Positions 7,286-23,639 of a stretch of 64,000 nucleotides of DNA are shown piece after piece (the first letter of the stretch is position 1; the number at the start of each line of letters is the position of its first letter). The stretch covers positions 62,001-126,000 of the forward strand of contig JAIQFK010000029.1 in the NCBI GenBank assembly GCA_020073305.1, written 5' to 3'. Made by a program: the position numbers and the translations under genes. Below the pieces are notes generated by a model. That model did not search any database, was not told the origin of the DNA, and saw only the letters and a list, made by a program, of their open reading frames with translations. The stretch is from Terriglobia bacterium. Lineage in GTDB: Bacteria; Acidobacteriota; Terriglobia; Bryobacterales; Bryobacteraceae.

Positions 7286-8419
7286 TCATTGGGCCTCGAC
7301 CACGTTAAGTGGTGGCGCACGCATTCGGATCTGCGCGGCGGTCAATCGCTCGACGACGACCATGGGCCCACCACAAGATGGGCACGTCCACCGGACCGGC
7401 GCGTGAGAAAGCGGCAGAAGGGCCGCCCGTCGCCGGTTGGCCAGAAAGCCAAAATGCCGGATGCGAACGAAGCCGCGCGGCAGCAGGTGCAACAAGAATC
7501 GGCGTAAGAACTCCTCCACCGGGAGGGTCATCAGCCGCTGCTTATTCTTGTGGGCAGAATCGCGCCAGCGGAAGGTGACCTTGCCGTCGACGAAGCTGAC
7601 GAGCCGATGGTTGGAGATGGCCACTCGATGGGTGTAACGGCCCAGGTAATGCAGCGCATACTCAGGCCCACCAAAAGGGCGCTTCGAGTAGACCACCCAA
7701 TGGTGGCGGAACAGTTGCCGGAGCAGCGACGAAAATGCCTTGGGCTGGGCGAGAGACCTCAACTGCCCGTGGAAGCCGAGTTTGCCGGCAGCGAATGCTT
7801 GCCGGAGAGCCGCGACAAACTTGCCTCGAAACACGCACCCTAGTACCTCGATCGGGAGAAAGAACCGATAGTGCGAGTGGATCCAGCGCGTATGATCGGG
7901 CGACAGTCCGCCTGCCGCAACGACGCAGTGAATGTGCGGGTGAAGTTCGAGCTTCTGGTTCCAGGTATGCAGCACGCTGAAGAAGCCGATCTCGGCGCCG
8001 AGACGGCGCGGGGTGCGCGCGACTTCGAGCAGGGTTTCGGCGCTGGCACGAAACAGCAGGTCGTAGACCACCTTCTTGTTCTGCAACGCGAGTGGCGCCA
8101 GTTCATGTGGCAGCGTGAAGACCACATGCACGTAGCGCGTCGGCAGAAGTTCCCGGCTGCGCGCGGCGAGCCATTGGTCCCGCGCGTTGGCCTGGCACTT
8201 GGGGCAGTGTCGGTTTCTACACGAGTTGTACGAGATAGTGGTGCGACGCCCGCACCGTGAGCACTCATCGATGTGGCCACCGAGCGCTGCTGTTCGGCAA
8301 CGCTCAATCGCCAGCAAGACTTTCACGTGTTGCCACGTGAGCCACCGGCGGCTCCGCTCGATGAATGTGTTTCCCGCGGCGCGGATGAGATCGGCCACCT
8401 CCAGTGGCGGCCGGGGCAT
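7286..8419 (-). CDS. IS91-family HUH transposase
   Basis: 377 residues. An N-terminal zinc-binding region (CSRCGRRTTISYNSCRNRHC and CPKCQ, about residues 58-85) precedes the HUH metal motif HPHIHCVV (about 190) and the tyrosine region HYLGRYTHRVAISNH (about 267). These identify a rolling-circle, Y2-type transposase of the IS91/IS801 group that nicks one DNA strand. Its ATG directly follows the TAA of the recombinase gene, so the two are translationally linked. Length and motifs look intact, so the protein may be active. The stop lies about 260 bases inside the left terminal repeat. Confidence 0.9.
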   Translation of the reverse strand: MPRPPLEVADLIRAAGNTFIERSRRWLTWQHVKVLLAIERCRTAALGGHIDECSRCGRRTTISYNSCRNRHCPKCQANARDQWLAARSRELLPTRYVHVVFTLPHELAPLALQNKKVVYDLLFRASAETLLEVARTPRRLGAEIGFFSVLHTWNQKLELHPHIHCVVAAGGLSPDHTRWIHSHYRFFLPIEVLGCVFRGKFVAALRQAFAAGKLGFHGQLRSLAQPKAFSSLLRQLFRHHWVVYSKRPFGGPEYALHYLGRYTHRVAISNHRLVSFVDGKVTFRWRDSAHKNKQRLMTLPVEEFLRRFLLHLLPRGFVRIRHFGFLANRRRAALLPLSHAPVRWTCPSCGGPMVVVERLTAAQIRMRAPPLNVVEAQ

Positions 8420-9295
8420 TTACTTGTCTTGTGTCGGCTCGACTTTCAGCGGCAGCGCATCCAGCGGACTCGCGGTGGCGTTGAGATGGCGCTGGGAGAG
8501 GTGCAGATAGATCGTGGTCTTTTCCAAATCGCGGTGGCCCAACAGCAGTTGGATCGTGCGCAGGTCGGCACCGGCTTCGAGCAGGTGAGTGGCAAAGCAG
8601 TGCCGCAAGGTGTGCGGGTGAAGCTCTTTCTGGATGCCGGCTCGGTGGGCCGCCTGCTGGCAGGCTTGCCAGACCACATTGGTGTGGATCGGCTGATCCC
8701 CAGTGTGCCAGCGGTTGCCGGGAAACAGCCATACGCGGGGCTTGCGACGCAGACCGCGCCAGTGTTCGCGCAACGCCTCCAGCAGCTTCGGGCTGAGCAT
8801 CACATCGCGGTCTTTCCGGCCCTTTCCACCCTGAATATGGATGACCATGCGCTGACTGTCGATGTCGCTGATCTTCAGGTGCGTTAACTCGGCTCGTCGC
8901 ACTCCGGTGGCATAGAGCGTCATCAGCAGAACGCGGTGGAACGGGCTAAGAGCCGCATCGATGAGGCACGCGACCTCGTCCTGACTTAGGATCGCCGGCA
9001 GATGGACAGCTCTCTTGGGATAAGGAGTCTCCGCCACGCTCCATGGCTTTTTGAGCGTCTTGACGAAGAGGAAGCGGATGGCCGCCACATGCTGCATCAC
9101 CGTGTTGGCGGCCAGTTTTCGCTGGCGGAACAGGTGCGCCTGGTACTGGCGGATGTGCTCAGGGCCTAACTGGTCGGGCTGCCGATGGAAGTACCTGGCA
9201 AAGTCCTCGACGATGCGAACGTAAGTGCGTGTTGTATTCTGGGAAAAGTTACGACGCTCGAGTTCCTCGAGCATCGTTTTGCGTAAATGGGTCAC
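8420..9295 (-). CDS. Tyrosine recombinase/integrase accompanying the IS91-like transposase
   Basis: 291 residues. An N-terminal SAM-like core-binding domain (SQNTTRTYVRIVEDFARYF) is followed by the catalytic domain with Arg in ATGVRRAELTHLKISDID, the HTLRHCFATHLLEAGADL box, LLGHRDLEKT and a C-terminal Tyr in TIYLHLS. All catalytic residues (R, H-x-x-R, H, Y) appear present. XerC-like recombinases are known partners in some IS91-type elements, where the role may be resolution or target capture. The gene begins 68 bases inside the right terminal repeat and is followed without a gap by the transposase. Confidence 0.9.
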   Translation of the reverse strand: MTHLRKTMLEELERRNFSQNTTRTYVRIVEDFARYFHRQPDQLGPEHIRQYQAHLFRQRKLAANTVMQHVAAIRFLFVKTLKKPWSVAETPYPKRAVHLPAILSQDEVACLIDAALSPFHRVLLMTLYATGVRRAELTHLKISDIDSQRMVIHIQGGKGRKDRDVMLSPKLLEALREHWRGLRRKPRVWLFPGNRWHTGDQPIHTNVVWQACQQAAHRAGIQKELHPHTLRHCFATHLLEAGADLRTIQLLLGHRDLEKTTIYLHLSQRHLNATASPLDALPLKVEPTQDK

Positions 9296-16312: not shown

Positions 16313-17023
16313 ATGGATCAGACAACCTTCAACTGGTGGTCTGTCATTGCCCAGTACGCCTCTATCGCTGTTTCGATTGGGGTGGGTGCGGTCGTCTGGT
16401 GGTACACGAGGGTGACTCAGGGCATCCGTGTACAAGGGCAGCGCCAGCTAGAGTTGCTCCAGGCTCAGCTACAGCAGGGTGAGCGGCAGTTGGAAATATT
16501 GCAGACCCAACTCCAACTAGGTTTGGCTCCGTATCTGATTGCGAGAGTGACTGCCTACAGACGAGGTGGACAAATTGTACCGAACACTAAGATCGCTGAT
16601 GCTCGAGGAAGCCAGACGTGTAGGATCTGGAACCCCACTGATCGACCAGCGCATCAGGTCAGTGCTTTAGTCTACACGGGCGGCGGAAACTACTTCTGGT
16701 CAGGAGAAGACTGCGATGTTCTAGTAGATTACGATGGAGATGGAGCGGGCCATGAGCTCACCGCGCGCCAGCTCCAATCGCAAGATGACGTAATTCATGC
16801 CATTCAGAGGGAATATCGCCAGGACGGCGACCGGTACATCGACCTCGTGCGCGACACCGCTCATGGGTTCTTGGCTATCTTCTTCCGAGACGTCAACGGG
16901 AACTTATACGTCGCCGTACGGCAAGTCGATTTCGACGGACACGGTGAGGAAGCCGTGATGCACCACACGAATAGAATACTTCGCCCGTTCGGCGAGAACG
17001 CCGTTCAAACTCGACCGCACTAA
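16313..17023 (+). CDS. Membrane-anchored coiled-coil hypothetical protein
   Basis: 236 residues. One N-terminal membrane helix (about 15-33, IAVSIGVGAVVWWYT) is followed by a short Gln/Leu-rich coiled coil with an internal repeat (QLELLQAQLQQG and QLEILQTQLQLG, about 43-68) and a soluble domain of about 165 residues with no recognised motif. It contains DVLVDYDGDGAGHE and FRDVNGNLYVAVRQ, which suggest beta structure. No partner gene is obvious. It stands alone between the REP-like repeat and the sugar operon. Confidence 0.6.
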   Translation: MDQTTFNWWSVIAQYASIAVSIGVGAVVWWYTRVTQGIRVQGQRQLELLQAQLQQGERQLEILQTQLQLGLAPYLIARVTAYRRGGQIVPNTKIADARGSQTCRIWNPTDRPAHQVSALVYTGGGNYFWSGEDCDVLVDYDGDGAGHELTARQLQSQDDVIHAIQREYRQDGDRYIDLVRDTAHGFLAIFFRDVNGNLYVAVRQVDFDGHGEEAVMHHTNRILRPFGENAVQTRPH

Positions 17024-17026
17024 TCC

Positions 17027-17860
17027 GTGTCACAATCGATTGATCCTATGATTGAACAGCTTCGCCCGGGTGTTTCCGCGAAGAACGCCCGGGTCGTCCT
17101 TTTTGATTTTGACGGCACCATCTCGCTAATTCGCGCGGGCTGGATGGACGTGATGGTGCCCATGATGGTCGAGATCCTCATGGACCTCAAGACCGGGGAA
17201 ACAGAAGGACAGCTCCGCCTCATCGTCGAGGAATTCGTCGGCCGCCTCACCGGCAAGCAGACCATGTACCAGATGATCGAGCTCGCCGACAATGTGAAGG
17301 CGCGAGGCGGCAATCCTCCCGATCCGCTGGTCTATAAGCGCATGTACCTCGACCTGCTGCACGAAAAAATCAAGCACCGCCTGGAAGAGTTGGAATCGGG
17401 CGTCGCCTCGCCCGAGAAATACCTGGTCCCCGGCGCGCGCGAGTTGCTCGAAGCTCTGCACGCCCGCGGCCTGAAGATGTATCTGGCAAGCGGCACCGAC
17501 CAGATCTACATGCGCAAGGAAGCCGCCCTGCTCGACGTCGACCGCTACTTCGCAGGCGGCGTCTTCGGCGCTCTCGACGATTTCAAAAGTTTTTCCAAAA
17601 AAATCCTGATCCAGCAGGTCATCGCCAAAGCCGAATGCAAAGGCGATCAATTCCTCGGTTTTGGCGACGGTTATGTTGAGATCGAGAACGTCAAGGAAGT
17701 GGGTGGCATTGCCGTAGGCGTCGCTACCGCCGAACCCGACTGCCAGATCGTCGATGAGTGGAAGCGCAAGCGCCTCGCCGGTGTAGGCGCAGATTTCATC
17801 ATTCCCAATTTCCTCTGCCGAGGCGAGTTGCTGGCGACGCTGTTTCCCAATGGCCACTAA
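17027..17860 (+). CDS. HAD-family phosphatase, first gene of the sugar-phosphate operon
   Basis: 277 residues. HAD motif I is VVLFDFDGTIS (nucleophile Asp27, Asp29); motif II is near MYLASGTDQIY; a Lys follows in the KSFSKK segment; and motif IV is GFGDGYVEIENV. A helical cap sits between motifs I and II. Such enzymes dephosphorylate sugar phosphates; in heptose synthesis GmhB does this, but GmhB is shorter and this is not a close match by eye. GTG 17027 or ATG 17048 could start it. It overlaps the next gene by 11 bases. Confidence 0.8.
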   Translation: MSQSIDPMIEQLRPGVSAKNARVVLFDFDGTISLIRAGWMDVMVPMMVEILMDLKTGETEGQLRLIVEEFVGRLTGKQTMYQMIELADNVKARGGNPPDPLVYKRMYLDLLHEKIKHRLEELESGVASPEKYLVPGARELLEALHARGLKMYLASGTDQIYMRKEAALLDVDRYFAGGVFGALDDFKSFSKKILIQQVIAKAECKGDQFLGFGDGYVEIENVKEVGGIAVGVATAEPDCQIVDEWKRKRLAGVGADFIIPNFLCRGELLATLFPNGH

Positions 17861-18812
17861 GTACGCCGTGTTCGACCGGTCGCGGCTGGTCATCAAGCCG
17901 CTGGCTGAGCGGGTAAATGATCTCGATCTCGATCGATGGCTCGCACTCGACGCCCCAACGCCGCCCTATTCCCATCCGCAGTTGACCGAGGTCGCGCGCC
18001 GCGTCATCGCCGCGAAACAAAATGGCGCCGCCCGCATTCTGATGATGGGAGCGCATGTGCTGCGTGCCGGCGTCAATCGCCACATCATCGACCTTATCGA
18101 GCGCGGGTTCCTCGATCACGTCGCCATGAATGGCGCGGGTGTGATTCACGATTACGAACTGGCGCGCATTGGCGCGACTACCGAAAGCGTGGCGCGCTAC
18201 ATTCGCACCGGCGAGTTCGGCTTGTGGCGTGAAACCGGTGAACTCAATGACTGGGTGGCGGAGGCCGCGGCGCTGGAACTAGGGCTCGGCGAAAACGTGG
18301 GGCGCCGCATCGAATCGAGCGGCTATCCGCACAAGTCGCTCAGCGTCCTGGCCGCCGCTTTTCGGCATTCGGTTCCCGTTACGGTGCACGTGGGCATCGG
18401 TTACGACATTCTGCACGAGCACCCCAATTGCGACGGCGCGGCATTCGGTGCCGCGAGCTACCGGGATTTTCTGATTTTCGCCAGTACGGTCGAGCGCCTG
18501 GAAGGCGGGGTGCTACTGAGCTTCGGTTCGGCCATCATGGCGCCCGAGGTGTATCTGAAGGCGCTCGCCATGGCTCGCAACGTGGCGCACCACGACGGCC
18601 GCGAGATCCGCCATTTCGCAACCGCTGTATTTGACCTGGTACCCATCCAGGGCGACATCCACGAAGAACTACCCAAGGCCGACGCCGGATATTATTTCCG
18701 GCCGCAGAAGACCCTGCTGGTACGGACGGTGGCGGACGGCGGCGCGAGCTTCTATTTCTGCGGCGATCACCGGGCTACCTTGCCCGCGTTGCGCCGCGCG
18801 ATTCTCGCATGA
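17850..18812 (+). CDS. Deoxyhypusine-synthase-like protein of unknown function
   Basis: 320 residues. Segments RILMMGAHVLRAGVNRHIID, AMNGAGVIHDYELARIGATT and ALAMARNVAH resemble the Rossmann-like fold of deoxyhypusine synthase, where the equivalent TGA...HD part binds NAD and substrate. The catalytic Lys of true deoxyhypusine synthase is not evident to me, and bacteria lack eIF5A, so hypusine formation is unlikely. The VTVHVGIGYDILHEHPNCDG segment is rich in possible metal or phosphate ligands. Similar proteins occur in delta-proteobacteria, as I recall, without an established role. It is coupled by overlaps to the HAD and PfkB genes on either side. Confidence 0.65.
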   Translation: MATKYAVFDRSRLVIKPLAERVNDLDLDRWLALDAPTPPYSHPQLTEVARRVIAAKQNGAARILMMGAHVLRAGVNRHIIDLIERGFLDHVAMNGAGVIHDYELARIGATTESVARYIRTGEFGLWRETGELNDWVAEAAALELGLGENVGRRIESSGYPHKSLSVLAAAFRHSVPVTVHVGIGYDILHEHPNCDGAAFGAASYRDFLIFASTVERLEGGVLLSFGSAIMAPEVYLKALAMARNVAHHDGREIRHFATAVFDLVPIQGDIHEELPKADAGYYFRPQKTLLVRTVADGGASFYFCGDHRATLPALRRAILA

Positions 18813-19789
18813 CCACCGCGGAGATTCTGGCGGAGTTTCCAAGGCTCTCGGCGCTGGTGGTGGGAGACATCTGCCTGGACCGCTGGTCGACCTACGATCC
18901 CGACGTCGCTGAACCTTCGCGTGAAACCGGAATTCCCCGGATCGGCGTGACTCGAACCGAAATCACGGCGGGCGCGGGCGGCACGGTAGCCAACAATCTT
19001 GCCGCCCTCGGGGTGGGGCGTGTCGGCGTCCTGGGCGTCATAGGGGATGATGGTTTCGGACACGAACTCGCGATGGCCCTCGCTGGACGCGGCATCGCAT
19101 CGGATGGCCTCATCCGCGCACGGGGAACGCAGACCTTTACTTACACCAAGCTGATCAACGCAAAGACAGGAGTAGAGGATCTGCCGCGCGTGGACTTCAT
19201 TTCCACCACGCCGCTCGATCCGAAAGCAGAGCGCCAGGTACTGGACGTACTCCCCAGCGCGATTGACCGCTTTGATGTAATCCTTGTTTCCGACCAGGCC
19301 GAAACCAGCGCCGGCGGGGTGGTCACGCCTGCCGTTCGCCAGCTGCTGGCGGACCTTGCTCCCAATTATCCCGACAAGGTCTTTTTAGTTGACTCGCGCG
19401 CCCGTATCCATCTCTTTCAAAAGCTGTTAATCAAACCCAATCGGGACGAGGCCGAATCCGCCTGCCAGCGACTATTCGGGCGCGTCGACTTTCAAGCTTT
19501 ACGTGAATATTGCCATTCCAGGCTTATGATTGTAACGGATGGGGCGAATGGTGCCCTGGTTCTCGAACCGCGGCAAGAGACATTTTGCAAAACAAAGCCA
19601 ATTTCAAAGCCGGTTGATATTTGCGGCGCTGGCGATAGCTTTTCGGCCGGAGCCGCCATGGCCCTGGCCGTCACAGGTTCGGCTGTGGAATCGGCGCATT
19701 TCGGCAATCTGGTCGCCTCGATCACGATCATGAAAAAAGGCACCGGTACCGCCTCGCCGGCCGAAGTGCTGGAGGCAGCCCGCGGATGA
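18809..19789 (+). CDS. PfkB-family sugar kinase, HldE/RfaE N-domain-like
   Basis: 326 residues. The N-terminus LVVGDICLDRW and TAGAGGTVANNLAALG match the heptose-7-phosphate kinase domain of HldE/RfaE; the C-terminal PfkB signature VDICGAGDSFSAGAAMALA carries the catalytic Asp. HldE kinases make heptose-1,7-bisphosphate. No adenylyltransferase domain is attached, as in the separate HldA form. The start ATGA overlaps the previous stop and the stop overlaps the ROK gene by ATGA. The kinase may act on a heptose or another phosphosugar. Confidence 0.85.
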   Translation: MTTAEILAEFPRLSALVVGDICLDRWSTYDPDVAEPSRETGIPRIGVTRTEITAGAGGTVANNLAALGVGRVGVLGVIGDDGFGHELAMALAGRGIASDGLIRARGTQTFTYTKLINAKTGVEDLPRVDFISTTPLDPKAERQVLDVLPSAIDRFDVILVSDQAETSAGGVVTPAVRQLLADLAPNYPDKVFLVDSRARIHLFQKLLIKPNRDEAESACQRLFGRVDFQALREYCHSRLMIVTDGANGALVLEPRQETFCKTKPISKPVDICGAGDSFSAGAAMALAVTGSAVESAHFGNLVASITIMKKGTGTASPAEVLEAARG

Positions 19790-20637
19790 GGACGCTGGCG
19801 GTGGACATCGGCGGAACGAAATTCGGCGTTGCTCTCTTCGATGGCGATGGCATGGTGCGCCGCGAAGCACGGCCCACGAATCGCGAGGGCGCGCGCGACT
19901 GGATGCTCGAACAGGTGGTCGCGATCGCGCACGAGTGGAAACGCGAATTCCCGTTCACGCGTTGCGGGATCGGCTTCGGCGGGCCCGTCGATTTCGAGAA
20001 GCAGCGGGTTGCCTTCTCCACACATGTCGGCGGCTGGAACGATTTTCATTTGACCGAATTTCTGGCGCATGAGTTGAGCGTTCCCGCCATCATGGACAAC
20101 GACGCCAACGCGGGCGCGATGGGGGAGGCCGTCTACGGCGCCGGCCGCGGCCACTCGCCCCTGTTTTACATGACGCTTTCCACAGGCATCGGCGGCGGCA
20201 TTTACCACGACGGGAAAATCTGGCGCGGCGCCGACGGCTGGGCGGGCGAGATCGGCCATCTCTCGATTCGTCCCGACGGCCCCGAGTGCCTTTGCAAGGC
20301 GCGCGGCTGCTTCGAGAGAATGTGCTGCGGGCTGTGGCTGGAGCGAGACTATGGCAAAACCGCAAAGGAGCTGCTCGGTGACCCGAATTTCGTCGCCCGC
20401 TACGTCGTGGATCTCGCGCTCGGCCTGAAGGCTTGTATCATGTTATTGAATCCGTCACGGATCGTAATCGGGGGCGGCATCAGCAATGCGGGGGAAGCAT
20501 TGTTTGGGCCGTTGCGCGCGGAGCTGGACCGGCAGATTACAGACTGGTCCGGCGCGCGGATCGACGTGGTGCCCGCGGCGCTGGGGGACGATAGCGTTCT
20601 TTACGGCGCGCTGGCGCTGGCAAACACACTGACATGA
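19786..20637 (+). CDS. ROK-family sugar kinase
   Basis: 283 residues. The phosphate-binding motif AVDIGGTKFGVALFDGDG begins at residue 5, the catalytic Asp is in IMDNDANAGAMGE, and the ROK zinc motif is CLCKARGCFE (CxCxxxGC). ROK kinases phosphorylate glucose, N-acetylmannosamine and similar sugars. Active-site and zinc residues look intact. Coupled by ATGA to both neighbours, it supplies a second sugar kinase in the same operon. Confidence 0.88.
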   Translation: MRTLAVDIGGTKFGVALFDGDGMVRREARPTNREGARDWMLEQVVAIAHEWKREFPFTRCGIGFGGPVDFEKQRVAFSTHVGGWNDFHLTEFLAHELSVPAIMDNDANAGAMGEAVYGAGRGHSPLFYMTLSTGIGGGIYHDGKIWRGADGWAGEIGHLSIRPDGPECLCKARGCFERMCCGLWLERDYGKTAKELLGDPNFVARYVVDLALGLKACIMLLNPSRIVIGGGISNAGEALFGPLRAELDRQITDWSGARIDVVPAALGDDSVLYGALALANTLT

Positions 20638-21188
20638 ATTTTCCGGCACAGTACAAAACCGAAGTATTGAAGGCGCTTGAGACCCTAGATCTCGAGAGAG
20701 TGAATCAGGCGATCGAGTGGTTCAAGGATGCGCGCGCCAGCGGCCGCCAGATTTTCGTTTGCGGCAACGGAGGCAGCGCCGCCACCGCGTCGCATTTCGC
20801 CTGCGACATGGTGAAAGGCGCCAGCTACAATCGCAGCCAGCGCTTCCGGATTATGGCGCTCACTGACCAGACCGCTACGCTCACCGCATACGCCAACGAT
20901 GTCAGTTACGACTGCGTCTTCGTCGAGCAGCTCCGTAACTTCGCGAAGCCGGACGACCTGGTGCTGGGCATCAGCGGCTCGGGCAACTCTCCCAACGTGA
21001 TCCGCGCTATCGAATACGCCAATTCAATCGGCTGCAAAACCCTCACTCTCACCGGCCGCGACGGCGGCAAGCTCGGCCCCCTCGCCCAGCTCAACATCCA
21101 GGTAGCCTCGCCCCACATGGGCCGAATCGAAGACGCGCACATGATCGTGTGCCACATGATTGGGTACTACTTTATGGAGGAGAAGTAG
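20634..21188 (+). CDS. SIS-domain phosphosugar isomerase, GmhA-like
   Basis: 184 residues, about the length of GmhA (190). The SIS signature FVCGNGGSAATASHFACD at about residue 40 and LVLGISGSGNSPNVIRAIEYA are clear, and a C-terminal DAHMIVCHMIGYYF matches the GmhA end with its His residues. GmhA converts sedoheptulose-7-phosphate to heptose-7-phosphate, the first step before HldE. It is the last gene of the coupled operon. Confidence 0.85.
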   Translation: MNFPAQYKTEVLKALETLDLERVNQAIEWFKDARASGRQIFVCGNGGSAATASHFACDMVKGASYNRSQRFRIMALTDQTATLTAYANDVSYDCVFVEQLRNFAKPDDLVLGISGSGNSPNVIRAIEYANSIGCKTLTLTGRDGGKLGPLAQLNIQVASPHMGRIEDAHMIVCHMIGYYFMEEK

Positions 21189-21566: not shown

Positions 21567-21811
21567 ACGCGTGTCCTCCGTGAGTTTCACTGACGAGAGC
21601 TTGAGCGTCGGTCTCATGGACGGCAGGACCATCACTGTTCCCCTCGTCTGGTATCCAAAACTTCTGGAAGCGACCGAAGCGCAACGGAACCATTGGGAGA
21701 TCTCGGGCGGCGGATACGGTATCCACCTGGCCGGACATCGATGAGGACCTAAGCACCGAAGGTCCGTTGCGGGGTGCGCCAGCTCCACGCCAAACGGCTC
21801 GAACGCCTTAA
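21538..21811 (+). pseudogene. DUF2442 protein with a one-base insertion
   Basis: The frame from ATG 21538 reads through PLVWYPKLLEATEAQRNHWE and GGGYGIH and then stops early after AGHR. Skipping one base at about 21727 restores WPDIDEDLSTEGPLRGAPAP, the standard family ending, to a TAA at 21809-21811. The insertion therefore breaks the gene, or is a sequence error. DUF2442-DUF4160 pairs resemble small two-gene toxin-antitoxin-like modules. Confidence 0.6.
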
Positions 21812-22842
21812 GGTCCATTGTTGATTACTACCTTTCCCATCCCGTCCTCGTAATTCTCCAACCGTTCAAACGTCTTGCTGATTTCTTCGAGCGGGCGCGC
21901 GTGCGTGACGATGGGGGCGAAGCGGGCGGTGTGTTCGGTCAGCATCGTTAACGCTTCCGCGGATTCGTGGTTCGAGCGGCGCACGTTGAAGATGGTCATC
22001 TCTTTGCGGCGCATGGTGTGGAGATTGACCGCGGTGTCGATGCCGGGCTGGATGGCGGTGACCACGACTCGGCCGGCATTTCGCGTCACGCTGGCGCACT
22101 GATTAATGCTGCCGTGTTTGCCGCCGCAGTCGATCGCCACATCTACTCCGCGATTGCCGGTGTCCAGGAGAATTTCGCGGACCGGATCCATGGCTGCGTC
22201 GGCGCCCACCGCCCGCGCCAGTTCCAGCCGGTGCGCCACGGGATCGGCGGCCCACACCCTTCCCGCACCCGCCAGTTTCAACGCGACGACCGTCAGCAAC
22301 CCGATCGGCCCGGCGCCAAACACCGCCGCCGTCTCGCCCGGGCGCACCGCCGCCAACTGCAGCGAGTGCAGCACGACCGCGAGCGGCTCGATCAGCGTGG
22401 CATGTTCGAGACTCATGCCAGTGGGAATGGCGATCAGGTTCCCCGCCGGCAGATTCGCGTATTCGCGGAAGAAGCCGGGTTCTTCCGGGTTGCTCATGAA
22501 CCGCAGGTTGGCGCAGACGTTGTGATGGCCGGAAAGACAGAACTCGCAGTGATAGCAGTAGAGCGCCGGCTCGAACGCTGCGCGGTCGCCGGGCGACCAG
22601 CTGGTGACACCCGGGCCGGTCTTGGCCACGACGCCCGCCGGCTCGTGACCCAGAACCATGGGGTAAACGCACGGTGAGTCGCCCACGGCTCCTTCGGAGT
22701 AAGAGTGAAGATCGGAACCGCAGATGCCCACCGCCGCCACGCGAACCTGGATCTCACCGGGACCCGGATCAGGAACATCGCGCTCGGTCAGTTGAAACCG
22801 GCGCACGCCGGTGAGTTCGGCGGTGCGGGCCCGCAGGCTCAT
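21808..22842 (-). CDS. Zinc-dependent medium-chain alcohol/polyol dehydrogenase
   Basis: 344 residues. Catalytic zinc ligands are in VGICGSDLHS and LGHEPAGVV; the structural zinc is CYHCEFCLSGHHNVC with four Cys; the NAD-binding motif is AVFGAGPIGLL. The family includes sorbitol, threonine and L-iditol dehydrogenases. It overlaps the phosphatase gene start by four bases on the same strand, so the pair may oxidise a sugar alcohol after dephosphorylation. The substrate cannot be assigned. Its stop shares bases with the end of the DUF2442 relic. Confidence 0.88.
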   Translation of the reverse strand: MSLRARTAELTGVRRFQLTERDVPDPGPGEIQVRVAAVGICGSDLHSYSEGAVGDSPCVYPMVLGHEPAGVVAKTGPGVTSWSPGDRAAFEPALYCYHCEFCLSGHHNVCANLRFMSNPEEPGFFREYANLPAGNLIAIPTGMSLEHATLIEPLAVVLHSLQLAAVRPGETAAVFGAGPIGLLTVVALKLAGAGRVWAADPVAHRLELARAVGADAAMDPVREILLDTGNRGVDVAIDCGGKHGSINQCASVTRNAGRVVVTAIQPGIDTAVNLHTMRRKEMTIFNVRRSNHESAEALTMLTEHTARFAPIVTHARPLEEISKTFERLENYEDGMGKVVINNGP

Positions 22843-23639
22843 CGCTTCAGAAACCGCAGAACTTCGTCCGCCAGCGCGGGCACCGCGACTACGGAGTTAC
22901 CGCCGTTGATCGTGTTGTTGCCCTTGAAATCGAAGAAGCGCGCTCCGGCTTCCTCGGTGATGATTTTCGGCGCCGCCAGGTCCCAGGGTTTCACCAGGGC
23001 CTCGATCCACACTTCGGCATCGCCGCGCGCCACCATCATGGCGTCCAGGCAGCCTCCAAAACAGCGCACCGACCAGAATGGCTTCGTCCAGTTGATCAGC
23101 TCGTTCGAAAACGAATACTGGGGGAAGTAATTGATGCCCGATATGCAGACCACCGCCTGCTCGACGGAGGTGATCTTCGAGATGTGGATGGGAGTGTCAT
23201 TGCAAAACGCACCACCGCCGCGTGAGGCAAAGTAGGTCTCGCCGCGTCCGGGGAAGTGCGCAACGCCGGCCACGACTTCGCCATCCTGCTCGAGGCCGAG
23301 GAGGTGGGCCCAGACGGGAATGCCGCGTACGTAATCCCGCGTGCCGTCGATGGGATCGATGATCCACCTGCGGCCGCTGCGCGATGGCTTTACCGCGCCC
23401 TCTTCGCCGAGCAGTCCATCGTCGGGAAAGGCTTCCTCGAATGCCGCGGCGAAGATCCGCTCGCATTCCCGGTCGGCCGCAGTTACGGGCGATTCGTCGG
23501 ACTTGCTGTCATAACCGATGCCGTGCTCGCGGTAGCGAAGGGCGACCTCTCCGGCCCGCAACGCAGCCGACCGGCACACATCCAGTTCGTGTTCAAATGG
23601 CGTCAACGTCAACTCCGATTCAAAAGCCCATTCTCGCAT
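22839..23639 (-). CDS. Inositol-monophosphatase-family phosphatase (HisN/IMPase-like)
   Basis: 266 residues. The metal motifs GEEG (LLGEEGAVK), DPIDGTRDYVRG and WDLAAPKIITEEAGA are all present. Members hydrolyse inositol phosphate, histidinol phosphate, PAP or fructose bisphosphate. Gene order (cytochrome c, then this, then the dehydrogenase, with an 18-base gap and a four-base overlap) suggests a small oxidative sugar or polyol operon. ATG 23639 is used; other starts are possible. Confidence 0.85.
   Translation of the reverse strand: MREWAFESELTLTPFEHELDVCRSAALRAGEVALRYREHGIGYDSKSDESPVTAADRECERIFAAAFEEAFPDDGLLGEEGAVKPSRSGRRWIIDPIDGTRDYVRGIPVWAHLLGLEQDGEVVAGVAHFPGRGETYFASRGGGAFCNDTPIHISKITSVEQAVVCISGINYFPQYSFSNELINWTKPFWSVRCFGGCLDAMMVARGDAEVWIEALVKPWDLAAPKIITEEAGARFFDFKGNNTINGGNSVVAVPALADEVLRFLKR

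Follow-up and report, generated by a model that had tools for sequence, protein, structure and literature searches.

In a 64,000-nucleotide stretch of a Terriglobia bacterium genome (contig JAIQFK010000029.1, positions 62,001 to 126,000 of the forward strand; referred to as the window), a five-gene operon at positions 17027-21188 of the plus strand encodes a protein of deoxyhypusine synthase (DHS)-like fold, further called DHSL, which is probably an enzyme of sugar phosphates and not one of hypusine or polyamine metabolism. The five open reading frames (ORFs) overlap end to end and encode, in this order, a HAD-superfamily phosphatase with a C1-like cap (17027..17860, 277 residues, GTG start, PF00702), DHSL itself (17850..18812, 320 residues), a PfkB-family kinase that resembles HldA and the kinase part of HldE and is without an adenylyltransferase domain (18809..19789, 326 residues, PF00294), a ROK-family sugar kinase (19786..20637, 283 residues, PF00480 at 194.8 bits) and a GmhA-like SIS isomerase (20634..21188, 184 residues, PF13580). 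Three of the four junctions are 4-base ATGA overlaps, while the HAD and DHSL genes overlap by 11 bases. The ORF coordinates, identical to those of an earlier sequence-only reading of this DNA, and the junction letters both agree with its proposal of five co-translated genes with mostly ATGA overlaps.

The AlphaFold2 model of DHSL, predicted from an alignment of 25 sequences (A1), reached a pLDDT of 93.8 and a pTM of 0.92. When this model was searched against the PDB with Foldseek, all 50 listed matches were either DHS or LOR/SDH, ArgZ and AgrE structures, with a probability of 1.00 and TM scores of 0.44-0.55 to the query. In addition, hhalign gave 96.4% over 277 columns for the comparison of DHSL with DHS and 95.7% over 154 columns for that with LOR/SDH, and two conserved motif regions of DHSL aligned with both DHS and AgrE. 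These regions, common to all three proteins, lie on the nucleotide-binding side. The modelling thus predicts a DHS / LOR-SDH-type (DHS-like, NAD-binding) fold for DHSL, and the DHS-like fold that had been proposed from the letters alone was borne out by structure prediction and structural search. DHSL has this fold and the HD-x-E motif region in common with the LOR/SDH and ArgZ/AgrE ornithine cyclodeaminase domain (TIGR00300, PF21570), but it scored only 14.2 bits against the TIGR00300 cut-off of 410.8, and no arginine or ornithine context was seen around it.

With respect to family membership, DHSL matched the NCBIfam model NF052581, 'GSU2086 family protein', at 377.6 bits (cut-off 250; model positions 2-300 of 301), although this name carries no function. 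Its match to the Pfam DS profile (PF01916) was sub-threshold (17 bits, gathering cut-off 27), and a genome-wide search with the DS profile listed only another locus. The lysine of the SWGK motif is the catalytic residue of DHS, and in a profile-profile alignment it fell on Thr293 of DHSL. This position was followed through 110 loci, comprising the window and the best DHSL match per locus (L202, L204, L205, L206 and L208 being other GSU2086 copies), and was occupied by threonine in 102 of them, by serine in one and by proline in one, with a gap in two, four not covered and lysine in none. Main-family GSU2086 proteins, for their part, mostly carry a proline there. Ten other residues (H69, H100, D101, E103, H180, D186, D206, K237, D262 and R284) are invariant in 109/109 covered sequences. 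Because DHSL stays below the Pfam cut-off and has a threonine at the position of the catalytic lysine, it is, by the tests run, not a deoxyhypusine synthase, even if it shares the fold and the motif regions with that enzyme. Some GSU2086 proteins deviate further. Two diverged homologues of 21-25% identity (L047:1202-2152 and L048:9215-10165) have lost several otherwise conserved residues, including K237, and the family proteins at L045:1875-2981 and L204-L206 show 33-36% identity, those of L045, L204 and L205 being longer than the rest. The L045 protein has an insertion of about 48 residues, and this locus also adjoins HAD and PfkB genes.

The genome that carries the window holds further proteins of this kind. 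A second GSU2086 copy above the cut-off is located on contig C26 (L032:6710-11316), where it is flanked by a UvrA-like ATPase and a CAAX-protease-like protein, and the one weak NF052581 match is a LOR/SDH protein on contig C34. A separate DHS-family protein that does bear the SWGK motif lies on contig C21, adjoining ORFs that, named by eye, resemble an agmatine deiminase and a decarboxylase. The presence of this SWGK protein and of the LOR/SDH relative makes DHSL one of several DHS-fold proteins in the genome. It might still be argued that DHSL acts on polyamines or amines in the manner of DHS or homospermidine synthase, and that it stands among its operon partners by coincidence, since it has the fold and weakly matches the DS and homospermidine profiles. 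We consider this very improbable, given the lost catalytic lysine, the absence of any polyamine gene among the annotated proteins of a sample of neighbours, the location of the genome's own SWGK protein elsewhere, and the linkage to sugar genes across phyla described below. A plain DHS or homospermidine synthase was accordingly rejected on the loss of the lysine, the missed cut-offs and the gene context. The earlier suggestion of a role other than hypusination is in line with the same observations.

The gene context of DHSL was surveyed in a set in which each bacterial and archaeal species is represented by a single genome, and the best 80 of at least 583 confirmed relatives, 51-81% identical in their best segment, were kept. 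Their origins include Acidobacteriota, Planctomycetota, Armatimonadota, Chloroflexota, Bacillota, Nitrospirota, Nitrospinota, Elusimicrobiota, Myxococcota, Thermodesulfobacteriota and Pseudomonadota, next to one archaeal Methanoperedens record. Neighbouring genes were predicted with a simple ORF script, with annotation of representatives only. Within 4 kb and on the same strand as DHSL, profile hidden Markov models (HMMs) detected HAD at 39 of the 80 loci, PfkB at 44, a nucleotidyltransferase-kinase at 17, SIS at 21 and ROK at 9, so that any partner was present at 66/80 and any PfkB-type kinase at 61/80. With the window genes as tblastn queries, matches within 4 kb (540 kb searched) were compared with matches beyond (599 kb), yielding 38 vs 2 for HAD, 52 vs 0 for PfkB and 24 vs 1 for SIS; ROK, at 10 vs 3, was the weakest link. 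The tblastn and HMM counts differ from each other. Across the 80 loci, SDR (6), DegT (5), radical SAM (8) and a transketolase half (4-5) were also found nearby.

Twenty regions, picked from 26 strong DHSL matches outside the window's own genome (six were left out), were fetched and compared gene by gene. The window order HAD-DHSL-PfkB was kept in 13 of these 20, with all five genes in 6 of the 13. Two of the remaining seven had DHSL with PfkB or HAD only, and the five regions without the block held different or partial GSU2086 copies of 34-38% identity. Moreover, of the 58 DHSL/PfkB pairs that were measured (gaps from -60 to 300, with starts chosen nearest the expected place), 31 had an overlap of exactly 4 bases. 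Because the block is kept in 13/20 regions, the 4-base overlap recurs in 31/58 pairs and the tblastn matches cluster near DHSL, the linkage of DHSL to HAD, PfkB and SIS is real and not due to chance. The company of sugar kinases and a GmhA-like isomerase, first noticed in this one operon, therefore extends across phyla and is not accidental.

These partners are reminiscent of the ADP-/GDP-heptose pathway (GmhA, HldA/HldE and GmhB), in which a GmhA-like isomerase, an HldA-like kinase and a HAD phosphatase likewise occur together. The best NCBIfam family of the window kinase was indeed rfaE_dom_I (TIGR02198, the HldE kinase domain), matched by 16/16 aligned PfkB members, and its best solved relative was the D-beta-D-heptose 7-phosphate kinase 4e84. 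The kinase nevertheless scored 145.2 bits where the cut-off is 345. Similarly, the isomerase had TIGR00441 (phosphoheptose isomerase) as its best NCBIfam family, at 125.3-125.4 bits against a cut-off of 209.45, and it was the only match to this model in the genome at an E-value of 0.001. The motifs of the HAD protein are well kept, with DFDGT in 61 of 62 sequences (one not covered) and SGT, K191, GDG and E218 in 62/62, the window included in both counts. Its AlphaFold model (pLDDT 91.8) resembled most closely AlnB (alnumycin-P phosphatase), phosphoglycolate phosphatases and beta-phosphoglucomutases, so that it would be a phosphatase or phosphomutase; on our reading of the model, its cap is of the C1 type. 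No GmhB model was found among its NCBIfam matches. The best solved relative of the ROK protein was the glucokinase 3vov.

Several features set the window operon apart from the heptose pathway. The operon adds DHSL and a ROK kinase, and Pfam and NCBIfam profiles detected no nucleotidyltransferase or adenylyltransferase in it. A stand-alone HldC-like nucleotidyltransferase (177.2 bits, cut-off 181.5) is encoded unlinked, on contig C16, and no HldD (TIGR02197) match in the genome reached the cut-off, 16 being sub-threshold. As to the zinc site of the isomerase, a passage on GmhA gives the ligands as H61, E65, Q175 and H183 (PMC5387315); at these positions the window isomerase has the zinc pattern H54-D58-E166-H174, two of the ligands thus being altered (Asp for Glu and Glu for Gln). 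Because of the missed cut-offs, these two altered ligands and the absence of a nucleotidyltransferase from the operon, the isomerase and the kinase are not GmhA and HldE proper. The GmhA-like and HldE-like labels given in the sequence-only reading therefore hold as a likeness, these being the best families, and fail as identities. A plain ADP-heptose operon was rejected on the same missed cut-offs, altered ligands and missing adenylyltransferase.

The altered zinc site proved to follow DHSL. Each SIS match was paired with the nearest DHSL match within 4 kb. Where DHSL was at least 50% identical to that of the window, the adjacent isomerase carried the ligand set HDEH (37 loci) or QDEH (3 loci), amounting to 40/40 loci, whereas for DHSL below 50% identity it carried the GmhA-type set HEQH in 11/11 genomes (duplicate loci merged). 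Among these 11 cases is a second DHSL from L078, which takes a basal position on that side of the tree to which the window belongs. In these alignments, the zinc ligands of the isomerase and the divergence of DHSL thus split together, which is a new observation. Since the loci are related by descent, some being close kin, it has to be read as one coupled split and not as 51 independent events.

Two genomic settings of DHSL could be distinguished, with labels that depend on thresholds and contig ends. Type A, with HAD and PfkB, comprises 34 of the 80 loci and includes the window. Type B (17/80) has an HldE-like nucleotidyltransferase-kinase fusion beside DHSL (ca. 510 residues, as annotated on one representative, L106), joined by SIS in 10 of the 17. 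In a FastTree phylogeny of 134 rows, 29 main-family rows were separated from 105 rows including the window (support 100). Of the type B rows, 16 out of 19 fell in one set of 17 (support 99), and the window DHSL fell in an Acidobacteria set of 24 (support 99). The type B DHSL of the Candidatus Methanoperedens (archaeal) record, L125, groups with Nitrospirota (support 86), which points to transfer or to mixed binning.

The protein that gave the family its name offers a point of comparison. In passages of a study on Geobacter sulfurreducens, transposon insertions during growth on electrodes have values of -3.1 for GSU2085 (hldE), -3.2 for GSU2086 and -3.7 for GSU2087 (gmhA), and GSU2086 is labelled 'hypothetical cytoplasmic protein in sugar biosynthesis operon' (PMC5585712). 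A passage elsewhere names GSU2084 as D-glycero-D-mannoheptose-1,7-bisphosphate phosphatase (PMC3495685). As far as those passages go, the similar transposon sequencing (Tn-seq) values for hldE, GSU2086 and gmhA support a shared pathway. GSU2086 and the window protein belong to the same NF052581 family, with a full-length match above the cut-off. The locus numbers in these passages put GSU2086 between hldE and gmhA, which is the type B order of nucleotidyltransferase-kinase, DHSL and SIS, and by gene order alone it would be placed in type B. The window, in contrast, is type A, with HAD, a separate HldA-like kinase, ROK and SIS and without a nucleotidyltransferase. A literature search for the function of the GSU2086 family found Geobacter passages and no reported function.

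Taken together, the operon might constitute a sugar-phosphate module of the heptose-pathway type, presumably acting on a C7 substrate. In a putative order of steps, the SIS isomerase would interconvert the ketose and aldose forms of a sugar phosphate, the HldA-like PfkB kinase would phosphorylate the product, probably at C1, and the HAD enzyme would take off one phosphate, while the ROK kinase could supply free sugar to the module. DHSL would then use the dinucleotide-type (NAD-type) redox cofactor of the DHS/ornithine-cyclodeaminase fold group for a redox-neutral, hidden-redox change, for example by epimerising or isomerising the sugar phosphate common to SIS and PfkB. The sequence-only reading had suggested that DHSL makes or modifies the sugar used by the two kinases in an NAD- or phosphate-dependent way, which is an inference as well. 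We put forward such a hidden-redox enzyme on a heptose-type sugar phosphate tentatively, as a reading of modelled fold and gene context that stands somewhat short of an even chance. Several observations speak against it: the Foldseek matches came with large root-mean-square deviations (4.9-17 A) and 10-17% identity; 14 of the 80 relatives, some of them on short contigs, had no partner in the HMM survey; 21 of the 29 main-family loci lacked every searched partner within 4 kb on their own strand, 8 having SIS or PfkB; the similarity of the Tn-seq values in the Geobacter passages could reflect polarity within one operon; and some contexts look catabolic.

The latter contexts consist of a Gfo/Idh/MocA dehydrogenase (7/80) and an IolE-like TIM-barrel isomerase (6/80) beside type A blocks, some in Chloroflexota and Clostridia and one in a Singulisphaera record, and of sugar ATP-binding cassette (ABC) importer genes at L103 and on a Chloroflexota plasmid that also carries DeoC. 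In view of them, we refrain from calling the role purely biosynthetic. They could even mean that the module serves the catabolism or metabolite salvage of an imported sugar, with which the lack of a nucleotidyltransferase in the window operon would also agree. This is nonetheless doubtful, as type B loci look biosynthetic and the window operon is without a transporter.

Another explanation, somewhat easier to entertain although we still find it unlikely, is that DHSL retained only the fold and became a non-redox or metal-dependent sugar-phosphate enzyme, such as an aldolase, a lyase, a mutase or a regulatory subunit for SIS or PfkB. The DHS lysine is lost, and the His/Asp-rich motif H180-x3-G184-x-D186-x2-H189-x-H191 could, judged from its residues, bind a metal or phosphate; H180, G184 and D186 are kept in 109/109 covered sequences, and of the 110 loci 100 have H189 and 104 have H191. 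Against this explanation, DHSL has retained the motif regions that it shares with its NAD-using relatives.

A hidden-redox epimerisation could also be carried out with a different cofactor, the nickel-pincer nucleotide (NPN) made by LarB, LarC and LarE, in which case DHSL would be an NPN enzyme other than LarA. NCBIfam, in its title for TIGR00300, calls this LOR/SDH family of DHS fold 'nickel-pincer nucleotide-dependent', and the operon of Ornatilinea apprima has a LarC gene (PF01969; L078:12057-13241) between PfkB and ROK, immediately after the former. In a phylum sample of 396 genomes, and with kinship ignored, 132 genomes carried GSU2086 (best E-value 1e-40 or better) and 122 of these had LarC, vs 160 of 264 others; in genomes without LarA and TIGR00300, and again ignoring kinship, the counts were 35/39 vs 41/123. 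A passage in the literature puts genomes with larB, larE and larC and without larA at about 15% (PMC11796402). For LarA, a nickel-bearing NPN adduct of about 451 Da is given. On the other hand, where a family includes carriers, its non-carriers mostly possess LarC as well, as judged by eye, and ten carriers are without LarC, of which seven have genomes at least 92% complete (G176, G349, G312, G328, G341, G373 and G389). Moreover, L078 is the only locus with LarC among those examined for it, and literature searches combining NPN or pincer, LarC and ornithine cyclodeaminase yielded no report of such a link. An NPN-dependent DHSL thus appears improbable, and the ten LarC-negative carriers and kinship-blind counts also lowered NPN dependence as a rule for the family. 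That the GSU2086 family is one of the missing non-LarA NPN enzymes, a DHS-fold sugar-phosphate epimerase working with the zinc-site-altered heptose isomerase, is a slightly longer shot still.

Some further Lar genes were seen. In two genomes of one family, LarA-type racemase genes lie in a divergent unit by the HAD-DHSL-PfkB operon (L038:685-1959 and L049:5326-6603), and on contig C16 of the window's own genome LarB is located 0.8 kb from the stand-alone HldC-like nucleotidyltransferase (L214:6544-7287 and 8108-8590). The genomes of L047 and L048 have LarC matches weaker than most.

Downstream and convergent to the operon, the minus strand of the window carries genes for a zinc dehydrogenase (21808..22842) and an inositol-monophosphatase-family phosphatase (22839..23639), which overlap by 4 bases and are possible accessories. 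Both also stand beside the operon at L190, a locus from the same genus (71% identity for the dehydrogenase and 73% for the phosphatase). The upstream ORF at 16313-17023 was rejected as an operon member, having no Pfam family and no tblastn match in any fetched locus, and Rfam at gathering thresholds gave no match on the window.

These results place the GSU2086 family, which is spread over many phyla, in a defined metabolic setting among named partners, and they predict a DHS-fold enzyme that would act on sugars instead of amines. If the cofactor were NPN, NPN chemistry would be extended from 2-hydroxy acids to sugar phosphates, and the published NPN-making genomes without LarA would be explained in part. 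The coupled split between DHSL and the zinc ligands of its isomerase offers a concrete handle for finding the substrate.

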